A DNA stretch of 64,000 nucleotides, taken from contig NZ_LDSL01000051.1 of the NCBI RefSeq assembly GCF_001476815.1, positions 124,001 through 188,000 on the forward strand, read 5' to 3'. The position numbers and the translations under genes were made by a program. Each line of letters begins with the position of its first letter. Positions within the stretch are counted from its first letter, which is position 1. Under the pieces are notes generated by a model. That model worked only from the letters and a program-made list of their open reading frames with translations, did no database searches and was not told the DNA's origin. Positions 3,058-55,938 of this stretch are shown in pieces. Source of the stretch: Pseudacidovorax intermedius. Its GTDB lineage: Bacteria > Pseudomonadota > Gammaproteobacteria > Burkholderiales > Burkholderiaceae_C.

Positions 3058-3146
3058 GTGAAGCGATTATGCCGGCTGTTGCGCGGCAGGCCAAACCCGC
3101 ACGCGCGATGCAGGCAGCCGTGCTCGCCGGACGCGGCGCGAGGACC

Positions 3147-46688: not shown

Positions 46689-47279
46689 CTACGTACCCCC
46701 TTCCCAGCTGATGGCAGCGATGGCGTCCACCGTCTGCGCATCGGCGATCAGGTCGCGCAGCTGCTGCCGACGGCCGATCAGCTGCTGACTCGCGGCCATC
46801 CACGCCTGCACGTTGGCGAGCGTCTTGGCGCGAAGGTCCGCGGCGTCGATGCCGCGCGCGAGCGCGAGGCCGTCAAGGTAGGGTGTCGGCGCACCGGTGG
46901 CGGCCCACGCGAGGGCTTCACCCTGCTGGATGGGCCAGGTCAACCGCTCCGATGTCGGATAGCCTTCGGTGAGCAGTGCCGATGCGGACTCGAATGCGTC
47001 ATTGACCTGGGCCAGCTTCTGGTCGCGCAAGTCCTGCAGCGTCTGCACGCATCGCCAGACCTTCGCCACCGGGTCGAGGTCGAAGCCGCGCCCGGGCGAC
47101 GCCGGCAGCGCGTAGAAGCATCGCGCTGCGAAGTCCCACCAGCAATTGACGTCCAGCGGCTTGACGCCCACCAGCACGCGCCAGCCCTGTGGCGTCGACA
47201 GGTACTGCGGCTCGGCCGTCTGGCCGAACGAGCGCACGAGCCCGTGCGCATCAACGATCGTGTAATCCTGAATCTGCAT
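46689..47279 (-). CDS. tail-fibre-associated protein (DUF4376-like)
   Basis: 196 residues from the ATG at 47279, whose last base is shared with the J-gene stop (TGATG). The C-terminal region with LTWPIQQGEALAWAA and RAKTLANVQAWMAAS resembles DUF4376-type proteins found after tail fibre genes. A chaperone or tip role is likely from position. Confidence 0.68.
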   Translation of the reverse strand: MQIQDYTIVDAHGLVRSFGQTAEPQYLSTPQGWRVLVGVKPLDVNCWWDFAARCFYALPASPGRGFDLDPVAKVWRCVQTLQDLRDQKLAQVNDAFESASALLTEGYPTSERLTWPIQQGEALAWAATGAPTPYLDGLALARGIDAADLRAKTLANVQAWMAASQQLIGRRQQLRDLIADAQTVDAIAAISWEGGT

Positions 47280-50200
47280 CACGCTCTCTTGCACACGTGG
47301 AGAACGGCCGTCAGATAGCCGCGGTTCTGGTATGCGCCGTCCTGCGTGTAGAAGGCTGGAGGCCCCCAATCCGCGTAGTAGCCGGCGTGCCCGTTCTGAC
47401 GCTCGTTCCCCGTGCCGATGCCGCCCCAGAAGTTTTTGACCGACACCTGCACGCCGTAGCTGCCCGGGCCCAAGTCCCACAGCCGCAGGTTGCCGCGCTC
47501 GGAACCCGAGTACTGCAGCGCCGCGCCGTCGTTGTGCCGCCGCAGCAGAACGAAGTGGCTACCGTCACCGTTGAGCGCGAGCGTGTGGCAGGCCACGCGC
47601 CAGGTCTGGCCGGCTGGCACGCTGAAATTCACCTGCAGGTAGTCCGTGCCCTCGGACCCCATCGCCGTTGTGATGGCGCCACCGCGCACCGTCAGCGTGT
47701 CGATGACGTCCACCGCGTTGATCGTGAGGCCTGACCACGAGTTCAGTTCGAACCCAGGCCCAAAGAATCGGAAGTGATTCGCCCAAGTGAACATCTGCAA
47801 GCCCATGTTGGGCCCGGTAATGTCCACACCCACCGCGCCATCCGTGCCACGGCGACCGAAGACGAAGCCCCACTGCCCATCGTTGAACCACTTTCCGGGC
47901 GTGCGGAACGTGCCCCAGTACTCGCCGCCGCCGTCTGTTCCACTCTGCAGGACGATGCTCGCGGAGTAGATCGTGCCGAGATTGCCGGTGATGGCCGACA
48001 GCTGCTGCACGCTCAGCGACCGCGCCGTGATGGAGCCATCGAGGTACATGTCCCCGCGGAAGCCCAGCGCACCGGCGCCGCCGACCGTGCCCACGGTAAA
48101 CACGGGCTTGTCGGCATAGCCGGGCGACGTGATCGAGAACACGTCGGTCAGGAAGGCCATGCGGCTGGTCTGCCCGTCGTTGTCGTTCACCATGCCGCTG
48201 ATGCGGCCGTCAACATCGAGGCGGAAGGTGTAGCGGGCCAGCGCCTTCCCCGCCGTCGTCGCCGTCACGGAAAGGCTTTGCTCGATGGTGGCCGCCTTGC
48301 TGTCGAACCCGTCCGCGCGGGCCTTCAACGTCGTCACGCTGGCGGCCTGCGCTGCGAGGTCGCTACCCTGCTGGTCCACCCGGGCGCTCGTCGCCTGATT
48401 GGCCGTGGCCTGGGCCTGGATGGCGGCCTTGGTCACAGACTGACTGGAGATGTTGCGCGCGTCGACATCAGTGACGTACCAGCCTTCGCCGGACAGGTCG
48501 CCGCCGCCGCCGATCTGCATCCACAGATCCGCACTGACTGCCCAATCCGGCACCGGCACTTCGCCCTCCAGGCGCTTCCACTGACCGGCGGTGGTGTACG
48601 TCGCATCGGCCGCGTGCCAATGGTGCTGATTGGTCTGCGGGTTGTAGAAGTGAAAGCCCAGGGTGAACGGCAGCGCGGCCTGGCTGGATGCAACGGTCGC
48701 GGCAGCCCAATACCGCTCCCCGCGCTTCACGTAGAAGCCTTGCCCGTGTTCGTAGGAGTCGCGGCCGACCTTGAAACCTACGAAGGGCGTTGGCGCCCCG
48801 GGCGGCACGCCGGCGGCATCGCGCGGCGTGCGGATCAGGTCGGTCCACGTGCCCGCACGATCCATTCGGCCATCGCGCACGAGGCTGCCGAGATCGAGCC
48901 GCGTGAGTGCCTGCAGGTTGACCACGTTGTCGGCCGTGCTGATGAGCCGGCCATTGATGTCGGTGGTGCTGGCCTGCAGCACGCCGATGGCGGCCGAATT
49001 CGACGCCTCTTTGCCTTCGACCGTCCCCACCCGGGACGCAAGCCCGTCATACCGCTGCGACTGCGCCGCGATGTCCGCGCCCTGTTGCTGGACCGACTGC
49101 TGCACCGACTGCAGGGCGCTGCTATCGGCCTTGCCCGCCACCTGCCCTGCCAGGCTCACGAGCTGCCCGCTTTGCGCAGTGTCGGCGTCCGCCCGCGCCT
49201 TCGCCTCGGCGATCAGCCGCGCATCAGCAGCCGACAAGTCGCCAGGCGAAGGCGTCCAGTCCGTTGCGACCGTGCCGCGCTCGAGCTTGAGCCCCGCGAC
49301 CCACACCGGCCGGTCGCCAGCGGCGTCCCAGGGCTCGATGCGCACATAGACGTCAGCTAGCTGTGAGCGCCTAAATGCCCAGCTATAGCGCTTCCACTCA
49401 CCAGTGAGCAGAAATGACTGTTCATCGTGGCCCGTGAACCAGAAGATGCCCACGTGATTGTTCGCCCCGGGCAGGCAGCGTCCCCAGAAGCTGAAAACGT
49501 AGGGCTGGTCTGCCTCGATCCGCGCGGCGAATGACCGGTACGCCCAATTGCCATCCGAGCGCAGCACCTTGAGTCCGTGGACCTCACCGTCAAGGGCGTT
49601 CGCGCCCCACGAGAAGGCGGCGCCGCTCCAATCCTGGGTTCCTGTCAGCAGGTTGGCGGCGCCCACTGCCAGGTTGTCCATCCGAGCCGTCAGCGCCGTG
49701 GTGCGCGCCGCTTCACTGCCGAGCTGGGTCGAGAGGTTGCCCACCGTCACATTCGTGGCGTCCAGCGCGGAGGCGCTGGCCTTGGTGCCGATGGCGGCCT
49801 GTTGCTGGTCAAGGCGCTGCGTATGCGCCGTGAGCTGGCCGCTGATGCTGCTGACGTTGGACTGCAGCTCGCCGATCAGACCCGCCTGCGCTGTGCTGGT
49901 GCCCTCGGCACCCGTCATTCGGTTCGTGAGGCTCACGAGCTGGCCGGACTGGCTGGCGATGTCGCTGCCCTGCTGATCGAGTCGGGCTGTGGTCTGCTGC
50001 AGCGCCTGGGCCTGCGCGGCGAGCGTGCCACGCACCGCGGCCGTAACGGACGCGCTGCGGAACTCGGGCAGCGCGGCAAATACCCTCTGAGCTGCATAGT
50101 CGGAGAACGTGCCGATCTGGAACCACCCGCGCGCGGCCACGGCACCGGCCGGCACGTCGACCTCGCCGGCAACAAATTCCCATTGGCCCACGGCGCCGCC

Positions 50201-53200
50201 CAAGCCCCCGACCGCGCGGAAGTCCATCACGATGCCATTGCGGTCGAGGAACGCAAAGCCCACCGCGGCGCCGTAGGTTGCCGGCGCGCCGCGAGCCATC
50301 CAGGCGCTCGCATACAGCCTGCCCCCCGGACTAACCGTCACGCTGCGACCCACGAACACGTCGCGGTTCTGCAGGTGAGCCACGTAAGCGCTGGGCGCGC
50401 CCGCCGGCACATCGGCGTCAGTGGCGGCCCGGCGCTCGGTGAGCGACCAGCCGTCTGCTGTCGCGATCAGCGCAGGGTTGTCGATCCAGTTCGCGCCGTC
50501 GTTGCTGGTCCTGCGGTCGTACTTTGCATCGAGGACCACCACGTCCTGTGCCTGGGCGTTCAGGCGGCCATCGAATTGCGTGGCACCGGCCTGCAGCTGC
50601 GAAATGGCGCCGGCGTTGGTGGCCTCTTTGCTCTCGACGGTGCCAACGCGGGCAGCGAGGCCGTCGTAACGAGTGGATTGGGCGGCAATGTCGCTGCCGT
50701 GCTGCTGGACGGTCTGCTGCACCGCCTGCAGCGCGCTGCTGTCGGCTTTGCCTGCCACCTGGCCGGCCATGCTCACGAGCTGGCCGCTTAGCGCGGAATC
50801 CGCGTCGACGCGGGCGCTGGACTCGGCGATCAGCCTAGCATCGGCCGCCGACAGATCGCCCGCAGACGGCGCCCAATCAGTCACGACATTGCCGCGCTCC
50901 ACCTTGAGGCCAGCGATCCAGATGGGATGCGCCGGCGAGGCGTTGTGGGACTCGATGCGGACCTGAACATCCACCGTCTCACCGGGCGTGAAGAGCCAAG
51001 CGTAGCGGCGCATTTCGCCCGTCAACACCCAATCGACCTCCTTGGTGCCGTTGAACCAGTAGACGCCGCCGCTGGCCGGGTTCTCTGCGGTTGAACGGCC
51101 CCAGAAGCTCAGGGCGTAGGTCTGCCCGGCGTCCACGCGCAGCGGGAATGTGCCGTACTGCCACGCCCCATCCGAGCGCAGCACCTTGAGGCCGCGGAAC
51201 TCCCCGTCCAGCGTGGTGCCACCGGAGCGCAGGCCCAGCGATGTCCAATCGCGCGTTCCCGTCAGCAGGTTGGCTGCGCCCACTGCCAGGTTGTCCATGC
51301 GGGCTGTCAGCGCCGTGGTGCGGGCAGCCTCGCTGCCGAGCTGGCCGGTCAGCGTTCCCACCGTCACATTCGTGGCATCCAGCGCCGAGGCGCTCGCCTT
51401 GGTGCCGATGGCGGCCTGCTGTTGGTCGAGGCGCTGCGTATGCGCCGTGAGCTGTCCGTTGATGCTGCTGACGTTGGACTGCAGCTCGCCGATCAGGCCC
51501 GCCTGAGCTGCAGTGGTGCCCTCCGCGCCCGTCATGCGGTTGGCTAGGCTGACCAGTTGGCCCGACTGCGTAGTCAGGTCCGCGCCGTGCTGCTGCACCG
51601 TCTGCTGTATCGACTGCACCACGGTGGCATCCGCCTTGCCGGCGACGTCGCCCGTGAGCCGCAGGATGTCGCTCGAATGGCTGGCGAGCGTGCTGCCCTG
51701 CTGGTCGACGCGGGCGCTGGTCGCTTGGTTGGCCGTCGCCTGTGCCTGAATCGCCGCCTTGGTGACGCCCTGGCTGGCGATGTTGCGCGCGTCGATGTTG
51801 GTGACGTACCACCCTTCGCCGGACAGGTCGCCGCTGCCGTTGATCTGGAGCCACACCTCGCCCACGGTTGCCCAATCCGGGGCAGGCACCTCCCCCTCCA
51901 AGCGTCTCCAAGCCCCGGCGGTCGAATAGATGGCGTCTGCGGCGTGCCAGTGGTGCTGGTTCGTCTCGGGGTTGTGGAAGTGGAAGCCGACGGTGAAAGG
52001 CAGGGCCGCGCTAGCGCTGGCGGCCGTCGCCGTCGCCCAATAGCGATCCCCGCGGCGCACGTTGAACGCCTGGCCGTACTCGTAGGAATCGCGGCCGGTC
52101 AGGAAGCCGACATAGGGTGTCGGCGCTCCTGCCGGCACGCCGGCGGCGCTGCGCGCAATGCGCGCGACGCCCAGCCACGTCCCCGCGCGATCCATCTGCC
52201 CATCGCGCACGAGCCCGCCCAGGTCAAGGCGGGTCAGCGCCTGCAAGTCGAGAACGTTTTGCGCGGCGCTCGTGAGGCGGCCGTTGATGTCTGAGGTGAA
52301 GGACTGCAGCCCGACGATCGCACCGCTGTGCGCGGTGCTGTCGCGCTCCACGGTCTGCAGGCGGCTCGCGACGCCGCCGATCTGGCTGGCTTGGGCGGTG
52401 AGGCCCTCTTCCGTCTGCTGGATGCGCGCGCTGTGGTCCTCGGTCTGCGCTGCCAGCGCCGCGACCGCCTCGCCCAGCGAGTCGTAGTTGCCGACCAGCT
52501 GCCAGTAAACAGCATTAGGTGGGGCGTTGCCGACCGTGGCGGCGATCGAGCGGTACAGCTTGCCGCCGGACTTGACCAGCTCGCCCACTTCGTAGGCTTG
52601 CGCCGGGTCGTACTCGGCGGCGCCGATGATGTCGCCCAGCTGCACATGCAGTGCGTCAATACTGGCCTGCAGGGCCGCGGCAGACTGCTGGATGGCAGCG
52701 TTACGGGCCACCACAGCGGCGGCCATGTCGGCGGCGCGGGCCTGCGCCTCGGCTCCGATGGCTGCCGCGCGCTGCTGCGCCTCGGCCGCCGATGCCGCCG
52801 TGATCGCCGCCGCGCGGGCCTGCGCTTCGATCGCAAGATCGCCCGCAGACTTCTGCGCGGCCTGCAGCACTGCCGCGGCGCGGTTCTGCGCCTCGGCAGC
52901 CACGGCAGCCGCCCAATCCCGGTTCGTGTCGGTCAAGTCTTGCTGCAGCAGCTCGAAGGCATCGCCGAGCTGCTTGTCCAGCACCTCTAGCGCGCCCTCG
53001 ATCAGCTGATCCACCGTCACATTGACGGCGCCAGGCGCGCCGGCGTTGCCGGCGACGTCGACGGCCGCAACCCAATAGGTCGATGCGCCCACGCGACCCT
53101 GCAGGGAGAACGACGTGCCCGTGGCCTGGCCGACCGTCTCGGCCGTCTCCCAAGCGGCCCCCTGGCGGATGACGTAGTGCGACACGGGCTGCGTGGTGCG

Positions 53201-55504
53201 GCAGTCCGCCCACGTGAGCTGCACGAATTGCATCGTCAGTTCAAACCGCGGCACCGCCGCCGCCGGCGGCAGGATCGCGATCCCGGCGGAAATGGGCGAG
53301 GACCACCGGCCCGTCATGGAGCGATGGGCCGCCCACACGCTCTGCGCACCGGCAGGGAACCAGCCGAGCGACGCCGTGAGGGCGCGGCCGTCAAATCGCA
53401 CGTCGGCCGCGCCGGCGGGCCAGGTCGCGCCGCGGCGCACCTGCGTGCCGTCCCACTCGATCTGATCGACGCCCACCGGGGCACCCCAGCGCGCACGAAT
53501 GCCGTCCTCGGCCACCCACAAGGCCAGGCCCTGCACCTCGGCCGGGTTGCCGGTGTTGCCCTCCAGCGTATGGCCGGCGTAGGCCCATGCCGAGGCCGTG
53601 AAGGTCGTTTCAAAGCGAACGCGGACCGTGTAGTCCTCGCCCACGTCCAGGCCCAGCAGGAACGTTTCTACGGCGTCGCCAGCCAGCTCGACGTCGTTCC
53701 AGGGCGGCGCGTCCGGCGCGTCCGCCTGGCCCGGGTCGGTCGCCCCGGTGCGCCATTGCACGCGCACACGGCCGCCGAACAGGACGTAGCTGCTGGCCGA
53801 CTGCGCCCAGCTGACCCGGGCGCGCACCATCGCGCTGCCGACCTGCATCGCCAGCTGGTCGCGCCCGCTCTCGACCTTGAGGCTGTGCGGCGGCGCCGGC
53901 GGCGCGTAGGGGTTGGGCAGGTTGGAATTCGGCGCGGCATCGGCCAGCACCTCGTCGGCCGTGTCGTAGAAGGCGGACTCATCCTCTTCCACCTCCAGCG
54001 TCAAGGGCGCGGCACCGCCGTACAGCCAATCCGTCACGGTGAACGGCTTGTTCTCGAACCCGAGGAAGTCGCTCGAAAGCAAGATGCGATCGCCCGGCTG
54101 CAGGTGCCATGCGAGCATCTTGGGATAGATCCGCAGCACCAGACCGCCACGGCTGCGCTCGACCCGCACGCGCGCGAGCTGGTGGCAGCGCACGTGCGCA
54201 CCCGTGAAGGCCAGCGCCATGTCGCAAATCTTGGCGCGCGGGTCAAGGGCGAGGAACGTCGCGTTCTGGTACTGCGCGAAGTCCGAGCTGACGCCGTTCT
54301 GCGCGGCGTTCACGTAGGTGCCGCGTGCCGTGTTGTAGACGCGCTCGCCCGGGTTGGCCGTCTGCACCACCTCGGAAGGCTGGAGCATGTCGACATCGCC
54401 CAAGGACAGGACCGGCGTGGTCCAGGCGCCGGCGTGGATGCGCCAGACGCCGCCGCTCTGCATGCTGAATCCCGCCATGGACTCTTCCAGCTGCTGGCGA
54501 GTGCTGTCACGGTCCTGATCGCTGCGGAACATGCCATCGCACACGTACAGGGCACGGCTGTTGCCGTAGTTCTCCGCGTCGCCGTCGGCCTCGCCGCCGT
54601 AGACCTCGACGTCGCACGCGTTGGCGGCGGCGATCAGGGCGGCTGCGTCGATCTGGTCCCAGCTCGCGCCGTAACCCTGCTCCGACGTGATGAAGTCGGC
54701 CAGGCACAGCGCCGGATTGCGCGAGTAGCCGCGCAGGCCCGTGCGAATGTCCAGAATGGACGCTTTGCCTCGCACCTTCGCCGTGATCGTCGGCGGGCCA
54801 CCTTGGAAGCGGTCCATGATCTTGTTGACGGACACGATGGCATAGGTGAAGCCGGACAGCTTGTGATCGGCGGTCCACATGCCAGGCGCACCGCCGATCG
54901 CACCATTGCACTGGTCGATCAGCCACTGATCCGCCACGTCCACGCCGCCCGGCGACAGGTGGATGCCGACGTGCACCATCGGCCCGTGGTCGAAGTCCAT
55001 GAAGCCGCCGGGCTGCTTGAACAACGCTTCGTTGGTCGTCCAGCCGTCGGCGCCGGCCAGCACCGCGTCGTCATCGATGTAGATTTCTTCGATGGCCTCG
55101 CAGGGATGGGCAGCGAACACCATCACGATGTGCGTCCACTGCGCACCGGCGCCCGTCGTGACCATGCCCACGATGGCGCCGCCAATGCGCCCGGGCGAGC
55201 CATAGACCACGGCATGCGGCGAATCGCTCTGCAGGAGCGTGACGCGACGGTCCGCGAGGTTGGCGATGTCCTGCTGTAGCTTGCTGGCGGCCTCCTGCCG
55301 GGCACGGCGCTTTTGCTGAGCGGTGGAGTAGGCCGTGCTGGCGATGCTGACCACCGTCAGCGCCGCGGAAATGATGGTGCCCCAGGAAGCCGCGGCGACC
55401 GCGGAAGCCGCCCAGGAATAGATGCTGCCGACGATGGCCGACACGGGCTCGGCCCGCGCCGGCAGCGCCGCCACCGCCAGGGCGAACAGGAGCAGCGCGC
55501 GCAT
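47279..55504 (-). CDS. J-like host specificity / tail tip protein
   Basis: 2741 residues from the ATG at 55504 (an ATG at 55516 adds four). It is the central tail-tip protein that recognises the host, as lambda gpJ. Parts in order: a hydrophobic signal-like start (MRALLLFALAVAALPARA), the TipJ-type core to about residue 620, fibronectin-like beta modules (about 620-860), an Ala-rich coiled coil (about 865-960), a repeated region of glycan-binding-like modules (about 1090-2390), and a C-terminal fibre domain. The module order is A-B-C-B'-A' with coiled-coil linkers. Length is more than twice that of lambda J (1132). Confidence 0.93.
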   Translation of the reverse strand: MRALLLFALAVAALPARAEPVSAIVGSIYSWAASAVAAASWGTIISAALTVVSIASTAYSTAQQKRRARQEAASKLQQDIANLADRRVTLLQSDSPHAVVYGSPGRIGGAIVGMVTTGAGAQWTHIVMVFAAHPCEAIEEIYIDDDAVLAGADGWTTNEALFKQPGGFMDFDHGPMVHVGIHLSPGGVDVADQWLIDQCNGAIGGAPGMWTADHKLSGFTYAIVSVNKIMDRFQGGPPTITAKVRGKASILDIRTGLRGYSRNPALCLADFITSEQGYGASWDQIDAAALIAAANACDVEVYGGEADGDAENYGNSRALYVCDGMFRSDQDRDSTRQQLEESMAGFSMQSGGVWRIHAGAWTTPVLSLGDVDMLQPSEVVQTANPGERVYNTARGTYVNAAQNGVSSDFAQYQNATFLALDPRAKICDMALAFTGAHVRCHQLARVRVERSRGGLVLRIYPKMLAWHLQPGDRILLSSDFLGFENKPFTVTDWLYGGAAPLTLEVEEDESAFYDTADEVLADAAPNSNLPNPYAPPAPPHSLKVESGRDQLAMQVGSAMVRARVSWAQSASSYVLFGGRVRVQWRTGATDPGQADAPDAPPWNDVELAGDAVETFLLGLDVGEDYTVRVRFETTFTASAWAYAGHTLEGNTGNPAEVQGLALWVAEDGIRARWGAPVGVDQIEWDGTQVRRGATWPAGAADVRFDGRALTASLGWFPAGAQSVWAAHRSMTGRWSSPISAGIAILPPAAAVPRFELTMQFVQLTWADCRTTQPVSHYVIRQGAAWETAETVGQATGTSFSLQGRVGASTYWVAAVDVAGNAGAPGAVNVTVDQLIEGALEVLDKQLGDAFELLQQDLTDTNRDWAAAVAAEAQNRAAAVLQAAQKSAGDLAIEAQARAAAITAASAAEAQQRAAAIGAEAQARAADMAAAVVARNAAIQQSAAALQASIDALHVQLGDIIGAAEYDPAQAYEVGELVKSGGKLYRSIAATVGNAPPNAVYWQLVGNYDSLGEAVAALAAQTEDHSARIQQTEEGLTAQASQIGGVASRLQTVERDSTAHSGAIVGLQSFTSDINGRLTSAAQNVLDLQALTRLDLGGLVRDGQMDRAGTWLGVARIARSAAGVPAGAPTPYVGFLTGRDSYEYGQAFNVRRGDRYWATATAASASAALPFTVGFHFHNPETNQHHWHAADAIYSTAGAWRRLEGEVPAPDWATVGEVWLQINGSGDLSGEGWYVTNIDARNIASQGVTKAAIQAQATANQATSARVDQQGSTLASHSSDILRLTGDVAGKADATVVQSIQQTVQQHGADLTTQSGQLVSLANRMTGAEGTTAAQAGLIGELQSNVSSINGQLTAHTQRLDQQQAAIGTKASASALDATNVTVGTLTGQLGSEAARTTALTARMDNLAVGAANLLTGTRDWTSLGLRSGGTTLDGEFRGLKVLRSDGAWQYGTFPLRVDAGQTYALSFWGRSTAENPASGGVYWFNGTKEVDWVLTGEMRRYAWLFTPGETVDVQVRIESHNASPAHPIWIAGLKVERGNVVTDWAPSAGDLSAADARLIAESSARVDADSALSGQLVSMAGQVAGKADSSALQAVQQTVQQHGSDIAAQSTRYDGLAARVGTVESKEATNAGAISQLQAGATQFDGRLNAQAQDVVVLDAKYDRRTSNDGANWIDNPALIATADGWSLTERRAATDADVPAGAPSAYVAHLQNRDVFVGRSVTVSPGGRLYASAWMARGAPATYGAAVGFAFLDRNGIVMDFRAVGGLGGAVGQWEFVAGEVDVPAGAVAARGWFQIGTFSDYAAQRVFAALPEFRSASVTAAVRGTLAAQAQALQQTTARLDQQGSDIASQSGQLVSLTNRMTGAEGTSTAQAGLIGELQSNVSSISGQLTAHTQRLDQQQAAIGTKASASALDATNVTVGNLSTQLGSEAARTTALTARMDNLAVGAANLLTGTQDWSGAAFSWGANALDGEVHGLKVLRSDGNWAYRSFAARIEADQPYVFSFWGRCLPGANNHVGIFWFTGHDEQSFLLTGEWKRYSWAFRRSQLADVYVRIEPWDAAGDRPVWVAGLKLERGTVATDWTPSPGDLSAADARLIAEAKARADADTAQSGQLVSLAGQVAGKADSSALQSVQQSVQQQGADIAAQSQRYDGLASRVGTVEGKEASNSAAIGVLQASTTDINGRLISTADNVVNLQALTRLDLGSLVRDGRMDRAGTWTDLIRTPRDAAGVPPGAPTPFVGFKVGRDSYEHGQGFYVKRGERYWAAATVASSQAALPFTLGFHFYNPQTNQHHWHAADATYTTAGQWKRLEGEVPVPDWAVSADLWMQIGGGGDLSGEGWYVTDVDARNISSQSVTKAAIQAQATANQATSARVDQQGSDLAAQAASVTTLKARADGFDSKAATIEQSLSVTATTAGKALARYTFRLDVDGRISGMVNDNDGQTSRMAFLTDVFSITSPGYADKPVFTVGTVGGAGALGFRGDMYLDGSITARSLSVQQLSAITGNLGTIYSASIVLQSGTDGGGEYWGTFRTPGKWFNDGQWGFVFGRRGTDGAVGVDITGPNMGLQMFTWANHFRFFGPGFELNSWSGLTINAVDVIDTLTVRGGAITTAMGSEGTDYLQVNFSVPAGQTWRVACHTLALNGDGSHFVLLRRHNDGAALQYSGSERGNLRLWDLGPGSYGVQVSVKNFWGGIGTGNERQNGHAGYYADWGPPAFYTQDGAYQNRGYLTAVLHVCKRA
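50815..51575 (-). repeat. J-protein module B, first copy (second copy 49198-49955)
   Basis: Shared landmarks are NRMTGAEGT, GLIGELQSNVSSI, HTQRLDQQQAAIGTKASAS, AVGAANLLTGT, GLKVLRSDG and TDW-PS-GDLSAADARLIAE. The linkers are almost identical; the central jelly-roll-like part has diverged more. Confidence 0.85.
51690..52250 (-). repeat. J-protein module A, first copy (second copy 48358-48930)
   Basis: Both copies run from QALTRLDLG through LVRDG-MDRAGTW, GFHF-NP-TNQHHWHAAD and LSGEGWYVT to the linker QATANQATSARVDQQGS. They are alike at protein level throughout but differ at many codons. The second copy begins near 48930 and ends near 48358. Confidence 0.85.
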
Positions 55505-55938
55505 CACAGCGACCATGCGGCCTCCGCACTGGTGATCGGCAGGAACTCCAGGCGATCCGTGCCCGGCGCCACGATGTGCGAACCCGTGCAGACGCCGAAG
55601 CTGTAGCCAGACACCCGGCCCACTCTGCCGCCGCTGCGGGCCAGCACCACGTCGCCGCGGCGAGCGGTCAGGCCATGGCGCGACGGGCCAAGCAGGAACT
55701 CACCCGCCGCAATGAACGACTCCCGCGCAGGCGCGCCGGCGCCGGCCTGGCGCACGAAACGCAGCGCGCGCAGCAGACTGCCGCCATCGAGCGGCGCGCC
55801 GCTGCCGCGCAGCGGCTCGAGGGCATCGTGCCCCGTGCGCAGCTTCACCCAATCGGCAGCGACATGGGCGCAATCGTGCTGGAAATACTCGAAGGGAACC
55901 GCGCGGCGCGCGTTCACGAAGGCGTCTAACTCTGTCAC
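55504..55938 (-). CDS. tail-tip cell-wall peptidase (NlpC/P60-like, DUF6950 type)
   Basis: 144 residues from GTG at 55938, whose GTGA overlaps the stop of the DUF2163 gene. The Cys nucleophile is Cys23 in FQHDCAHVAADW; a His in TGSHIV near the end completes the pair. Lambda gpK and related proteins at this position cut peptidoglycan during entry. It is small for the family, consistent with a stand-alone peptidase domain. Its stop shares one base with the J-gene start. Confidence 0.78.
   Translation of the reverse strand: MTELDAFVNARRAVPFEYFQHDCAHVAADWVKLRTGHDALEPLRGSGAPLDGGSLLRALRFVRQAGAGAPARESFIAAGEFLLGPSRHGLTARRGDVVLARSGGRVGRVSGYSFGVCTGSHIVAPGTDRLEFLPITSAEAAWSL

Follow-up and report, generated by a model that had tools for sequence, protein, structure and literature searches.

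A J-type tail-tip protein of a Pseudacidovorax intermedius prophage with a direct, alternating array of predicted carbohydrate-binding-module-like heads

The window analysed here is a 64,000-nucleotide stretch of Pseudacidovorax intermedius (contig NZ_LDSL01000051.1, positions 124,001 to 188,000), whose minus strand holds, at window 47279-55516, the gene for a very large prophage tail protein, here called J. Counted from the first ATG the protein has 2745 residues; the 2741 given in the original prediction result from starting at the Met in position 5 instead. Its repeated modules had been described as standing in a mirror-like order, A-B-C-B'-A', on near-identical coiled-coil linkers, whose likeness was taken as a sign of recombination at the linkers. 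Is that symmetry meaningful, how did the array arise, and what would it be for? The evidence set out below makes it fairly probable that J is a central fibre of the lambda J/Tal type, and that an exchangeable array of heads, which probably bind glycans, adds to its length.

The repeats themselves are real, and similarity between the copies extends beyond the linkers. In a blastp self-comparison, with composition correction and masking off, the A and A' segments (residues 1100-1270 and 2210-2380) align without gaps at 75% identity over 171 residues (E 6e-93; 73% for the heads alone) and the B and B' segments (1414-1565 and 1953-2104) at 55% over 152 residues (E 9e-56; 51% for the heads alone); the region first delimited, 48358-52250, does span A to A'. 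Module C, thought to be a related but separate module, is indeed related, with 29-33% identity to A (E 4e-21) and E 4e-20 to A', and is better described as an A-family head. Against 500 shuffles each, z was 102 for A/A', 60 for B/B' and 17 for both A/C and A'/C, with no shuffle reaching the observed score; A/B, A/B', C/B and C/B' were at chance and A'/B' was marginal (10/500). Because C is kin to A and A' and not detectably to B, the array reads A-B-A-B-A, a direct head-to-tail alternation in which C appears, from sequence comparison, as a diverged member of the A family. Demonstrable sequence homology between A and B was rejected (probability 2.4%, E 0.019, shuffles at chance); as modeled, the two share a fold class only.

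An alternating array with A at both ends is necessarily a palindrome, so the order carries little information; among the possible orders of three A-type and two B-type heads, 2 of 10 are palindromic. The two top matches of the DNA self-comparison are direct repeats, of 1018 nucleotides (74%, L1-B-L2) and 640 nucleotides (75%, A with its flanks), and their ends fall in linkers (residues 1317-1652/1856-2191 and 1066-1278/2176-2388). The linkers, too, run in direct order, L1, L2, L1', L2', and the inverted repeats found are short and weak (25-51 nucleotides, 71-76%). In view of these repeats a mirror or inverted duplication was rejected. That the mirror order has a function in itself, as in a symmetric bundle or hairpin fibre, or comes from inverted duplication is thus very improbable and already largely refuted; moreover, the related J of Pseudacidovorax sp. 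RU35E has a single head family (D), and the order in gp21 of Klebsiella phage phiKO2, B-M-N-A-B-M, is not palindromic. What speaks for symmetry is that the outer copies are the closest pair both in J (A/A') and in RU35E, where the D heads are mostly about 50% identical, with D1/D4 at 90% and the other five pairs at 48-54%. By chance this would occur 1 time in 3 and 1 in 6, respectively, or about 1 in 18 for both together, and we note it without claim.

The copies in J differ at synonymous sites by a divergence (dS) of 0.63 for L1, 0.91 for A, 1.21 for B and 1.16 for L2, so the duplications are old. Divergence of this size (0.6-1.2) also excludes an assembly artefact, as does a second prophage protein, J2 (2727 residues, contig C257 of the same 5.5 Mb genome), which has the identical five-head order. 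Since J and J2 share that order, it is older than their split or was transferred whole. By position, J/J2 identity is 56% in the hub (residues 1-560; 61% at about residues 90-860), 84% in A, 72% in B, 76% in C, 95% in B', 68% in A', 88% in the C-core and 37-38% in the C-terminal tip.

This resemblance is patchy. We applied eight tests of quartet site patterns; these respond to the clustering of sites, say nothing about direction and are reported with uncorrected p values. Residues 1328-1456 of J (L1 and the start of B) agree with their own second copy against J2 (59 vs 22 sites), and A' of J2 agrees with A of J2 against A' of J (54 vs 11 sites); 0/2000 permutations reached either pattern. A third test, on L2' of J2 at residues 1545-1639, also gave 0/2000, with 28 vs 28 sites, and the other five gave p of 0.001, 0.0025, 0.027, 0.29 and 0.58. 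Part of the signal could come from constraint that varies along the protein or from a stretch of foreign origin in L1 of J2. At the DNA level L1'-B' (49244-50038) is 89-91% identical between J and J2, against 77% in the flanking C and 80% in L2', which hints at exchange between the two prophages of one genome; high identity is not confined to this patch, the post-A' coil standing at 87% and the C-core at 84%.

A third array comes from RU35E, whose J (locus L020, open reading frame from 5402) has 3181 residues and four D heads, a third family that neither the A nor the B profile matches (best 2.5 bits). Its hub (about residues 90-860) is 86% identical to that of J, closer than the hubs of J and J2, and its linkers are of the same family. 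With a hub so close and an array so different, hub and array must have had different histories. The silent sites of this protein are uneven: dS is 0.13-0.31 between pre-head linkers and 1.04-1.33 between head cores (0.45 for D1/D4). With D1/D2 and D3/D4 pooled, the codon is identical at 216/241 positions of the linkers and head tails, against 75/130 of the head cores (p 5e-12). Over all six pairs, which are not independent, the counts are 354/405 for the pre-coil, 288/330 for the tail and 267/440 for the core, the D1/D4 cores (86/115) being the exception; comparisons of the post-coil with D4 (dS 0.71-0.89, nonsynonymous divergence, dN, 0.65-0.67) were set aside as non-homologous. Protein constraint would not readily explain this pattern, and recombination through the linkers would. 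The coil repeats of RU35E are spaced 79 residues apart, with 11 copies of one motif and DNA up to 95% identical.

How widely are such heads distributed? Our architecture scan covered 34 proteins: J and J2, and a single protein per locus for 32 of the 37 loci (the other five had no hub open reading frame). Four pairs among them are identical and a further one, truncated, is 99.9% identical (L188/L189), which leaves 29 distinct proteins. Only profiles of A, B and D were used, so other heads would escape, and contig ends truncate L183 and L188. Within these limits A, B or D heads occur in 4/29 distinct hub proteins: J, J2, RU35E and L171, which has one A. The same four are the head carriers among nine distinct relatives, some partial, that match the C-core, where the number of A, B or D heads is 0, 1, 4 or 5. 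In NFM-22, RU35E contig 10, Variovorax EL159 and V. paradoxus ISL-3, hub and C-core are both matched, and the A, B and D profiles find no head in the stretch that separates them. As judged from these profiles, head number and type vary between conserved ends, as in the multi-module Tal proteins of the Streptococcus thermophilus phage type.

The clearest case of a duplication ended in linkers, as read from sequence, is in a known phage. PhiKO2 gp21 (locus L204, AY374448; 3433 residues) is annotated 'similar to lambda J protein' and resembles J in its A-type (E 4e-18) and B-type (E 2e-8) heads, in coil-like linkers of the same family and in an internal duplication. Unlike J, it has further head families in its different order, and its duplication is recent; M and N are labels given on reading the phiKO2 sequence, and M is weakly A-like (E 0.009, one copy). 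The duplication is direct, 1567 nucleotides long and 97% identical at the DNA level (nucleotides 4060-5626/7690-9256, residues 1354-1876/2564-3086). The left end of copy one lies in a linker profile match (1303-1388) and the right end of copy two in another (3073-3129); the remaining two ends were assigned to linkers by eye.

What, then, are the heads? AlphaFold2 modeled both A (11 alignment rows, predicted local distance difference test [pLDDT] 81.7) and B (23 rows, pLDDT 86.5) as beta-sandwiches, and in comparison with known structures, including a Foldseek search, both models resemble carbohydrate-binding folds. The best match of A is 2zew_B (carbohydrate-binding module [CBM] family 16; Z 14.1, root-mean-square deviation 3.2, 136 aligned) and that of B is 3oea_A (CBM16; Z 13.7, deviation 2.2, 127 aligned); CBM16, CBM4 and CBM22 structures match the two models at Z 11.9-14.1, and CBM61 structures also appear. 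A and B are thus predicted to have a CBM4/16/22-like beta-sandwich fold, and C is assigned to it by homology to A only. Phage adhesion proteins occur in both match lists (K2-2 TSP, CBA120 TSP4, phi812 baseplate), and the central fibre of mycobacteriophage Douge in that of A. A sequence search of the PDB with B gave five weak matches, mostly CBMs (best E 0.003), and with A none at E 1. Heads of the B' type are found in 143 phage records, mostly of Streptococcus (85) and Lactococcus (47), with 32-35% identity in the best 30 of the 143, mainly from S. thermophilus, S. suis and Lactococcus; among the matches listed, many are annotated as antireceptor or receptor-binding proteins. It is plausible that the array diversifies receptor binding, and the likely role of J, as modeled, would be that of a long fibre that binds glycans multivalently in front of the tip.

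The explanation we favor can be put as a sequence of steps. J would be the central tail-tip protein, a trimer by analogy, of a lambda-like siphoviral prophage, with five heads, drawn from two sequence families in strict alternation, on coil-like linkers between a hub/fibronectin part and a C-terminal fibre and tip. The array would most likely have arisen when head-linker units were duplicated head to tail, the duplication ends falling within linkers, after which heads would have diverged or been replaced, the middle A-type head (C) diverging most. The array would lengthen the central fibre and display up to 15 heads per trimer; these may bind cell-surface glycans weakly and multivalently, gaining avidity, and so hold the phage until the tip meets its final receptor.

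Several observations weigh against this explanation. With regard to the heads, the other four B models reach a pLDDT of only 72-75, leaving a single confident one. Insecticidal toxin domains and meprins stand in the match lists as well, and so function cannot be read from the fold alone. In Pfam, B matches CBM_4_9 below threshold (E 0.093, 13.5 bits vs a cut-off of 25.9), and at E 1 nothing matches A, C, B' or A'. Divergence between J and J2 peaks in the tip and the hub, above any head. The linkers, for their part, show clear hydrophobic periodicity only before A (3.50, reached by 0/500 shuffles) and in L1' (3.45, 7/500), and at silent sites they show no closer agreement than the heads do: at conserved residues, identical codons number 104/171 in linkers vs 99/167 in heads of J (p 0.82) and 103/159 vs 118/178 in J2 (p 0.82). 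For J, the linker pool combines L1 with L2 and the head pool A with B, the pre-A coil (11/25), the L1 head (12/23) and A/C (18/41) being excluded. Only L1 of J stands out, with 65/91 vs 39/80 in L2 (p 0.003) and 35/64 in B (p 0.04).

Could the linkers then be alike purely through strong protein constraint on the coil, with no linker recombination beyond the original duplication? In J, where linker and head silent sites agree equally and L2/L2' stands at dS 1.16, likeness of the linkers does reflect mostly protein constraint. Nor are the linkers near-identical: L1/L1' is 84% and L2/L2' 72% identical in amino acids, the latter no closer than A/A'. As evidence of recombination, linker likeness therefore counts for little in J itself. 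That part of the original prediction finds its support in the J/J2 mosaic patches, the homogenised silent sites of the RU35E linkers, the discordance of hub and array, and the phiKO2 duplication ending within linkers, and in light of the patches, RU35E and phiKO2 we consider constraint on its own an unlikely account.

Alternatively, the heads may be structural bulk and the array a spacer that sets fibre length, the CBM-like fold having no sugar-binding function. In favor of this, the array linkers sum to 678 residues, which as one straight helix would reach at most about 100 nm, and close relatives exist that have no A/B/D array. A pure spacer, however, would have no need for alternating head families, RU35E fills the same slots with a different family (D, known from sequence), and B' homologues occur in proteins annotated as antireceptors. 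We therefore regard a pure spacer as improbable, and probable glycan-binding heads as the better reading.

The setting of the gene agrees with a J-type function. Among the selected open reading frames scanned, the minus-strand order is TMP_2, tail protein phrog_2048, phrog_2134, J, phrog_2618, holin and lysozyme, and an S49 peptidase/head protease, capsid protein E and a tail tube protein lie nearby. The J gene thus sits 3' of the tape measure and small tail genes and 5' of lysis genes, the placement of a lambda-like J/Tal gene; in lambda, J is placed after the tape measure gene. The locus is a siphoviral-type, lambda-like prophage, and the region is present in IMG/VR as a viral contig. Residues 12-645 match phrog_5616 'tail fiber protein' (E 3e-52), and there is also a match to tail protein phrog_2589 (E 3e-68); by these matches J belongs to the sequence family of lambda-like J/Tal central tail-tip hubs. 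Sub-threshold Pfam matches were PF09327 (Phage_Tail_Tip) on the C-core (E 0.11, 12.7 bits, cut-off 22) and PF02839 (CBM_5_12) at residues 968-1010, just upstream of the array (E 0.003-0.015). The CBM_5_12-like motif (52487-52615) is retained in J2 at 67%. An NCBIfam scan gave only SMC, citrate synthase and CcmE matches, all far below cut-off. Viral scans with J, A and B as queries matched only the two prophages of this genome, and the two IMG/VR matches, being the same genome, were excluded as independent evidence. A first scan of genome contigs confirmed no relatives; the closest named relatives with this J are Pseudacidovorax. The features of J are collected in Table 1.

Table 1. Features of J on the window, in order along the protein
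Feature	Residues	Window position	Strand	Evidence
Hub and fibronectin-like zone	1-860	52937..55516	-	phrog_5616, E 3e-52; hub profile
Ala-rich helical-type stretch	861-967	52616..52936	-	Sequence; 72% to J2; helical periodicity not significant (106/500)
Small CBM_5_12-like motif	968-1010	52487..52615	-	PF02839, sub-threshold
Pre-A coil-like linker	1011-1099	52220..52486	-	Hydrophobic period 3.50, reached by 0/500 shuffles
Head A	1100-1252	51761..52219	-	A/A' 73%; AlphaFold2 pLDDT 81.7; CBM16 Z 14.1
Linker L1	1253-1413	51278..51760	-	84% to L1' (124 aligned residues); mosaic patch 1328-1456 starts inside
Head B	1414-1552	50861..51277	-	B/B' 51%; pLDDT 86.5; CBM16 Z 13.7; CBM_4_9 E 0.093, sub-threshold
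Linker L2	1553-1673	50498..50860	-	72% to L2'
Head C, diverged A-family	1674-1826	50039..50497	-	33% to A, E 4e-21; z 17 vs shuffles
Linker L1'	1827-1952	49661..50038	-	92% to same J2 linker; period 3.45, 7/500
Head B'	1953-2091	49244..49660	-	95% to J2 B'; 35% to Streptococcus suis phage protein, E 6e-14
Linker L2'	2092-2209	48890..49243	-	Position-matched comparison
Head A'	2210-2362	48431..48889	-	A/A' comparison
Post-A' linker	2363-2425	48242..48430	-	94% to J2
C-core	2426-2640	47597..48241	-	Weak PF09327 signal; 88% to J2, 71% to RU35E J
C-terminal tip, strongly variable between phages	2641-2745 + stop	47279..47596	-	37-38% to J2, 48% to RU35E J

Residues 2641-2745 are likely the final receptor-binding tip. 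This tip (47279-47596) is the part of J most diverged from J2, though the preceding C-core is 88% identical. The open reading frame at 46689-47480 adjoins J, and its second half matches phrog_2618 (E 1.5e-22; function given as unknown).

Among known systems, lambda gpJ is laid out, in passages of PMC11101478, as a hub, two fibronectin domains, a helical shaft, a beta-prism and a tip. Listed as common to it and J are the hub, the fibronectin repeats, the helical shaft, the beta-prism fibre and a C-terminal receptor-binding tip (passages of PMC11101478 and PMC7291167); lambda gpJ differs in having 1132 residues and no head array; the array of J sits about where that layout places the helical shaft. 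The 'central tail fiber J' of an Acinetobacter phage (PQ859669) has a single head of the A type (29%), coil-like linkers that match L1 and no significant B-type head. Passages of PMC9437275 describe the S. thermophilus phage Tals as 'LEGO-like' combinations of CBMs, with binding tests cited. Like J, these are large tail-tip proteins with an N-terminal hub and variable, linker-joined CBM heads, and they end in a C-terminal helix and prism, listed as common with J. Their CBM_3 and CBM_4 matched structures 3p6b and 2zey, which turn up for the J head models as well, and the B' head of J is homologous in sequence to heads of S. thermophilus phages. Unlike J, these Tals belong to phages of Gram-positive hosts and, in the same passages, carry one to three CBMs rather than five heads. 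Antireceptor domains separated by collagen-like repeats are described for S. thermophilus phages in part of PMC5601072; the six linkers of J lack proline altogether, and their longest Gly-X-Y run is two triplets, so they are not collagen-like. With regard to phiKO2, homologues of about 4200 residues are mentioned in a passage of PMC7784688. Our literature search, which did not cover the phiKO2 genome paper, found no published description of this array. J is thus a further case of the known multi-head Tal kind exemplified by the S. thermophilus Tals and phiKO2 gp21, here with coil-like linkers.

The direct alternation found here corrects a tempting reading of the array as mirror-symmetric. Moreover, comparison of silent sites separates protein constraint from recombination where linkers look more alike than heads. 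We offer as a tentative possibility, on the doubtful side, that the coil-like linkers act as a recombination scaffold. Conversion would keep their DNA alike within an array, and the glycan-binding heads between them would diverge or give way to others; in this way Gram-negative temperate phages may reshuffle the row of lectins on their central fibre, including between the two prophages found here in a single genome. Linker-mediated shuffling of host-binding heads can be tested directly on the three arrays in two related genomes and on phiKO2, since similar hubs bear 0, 4 or 5 heads in close relatives.

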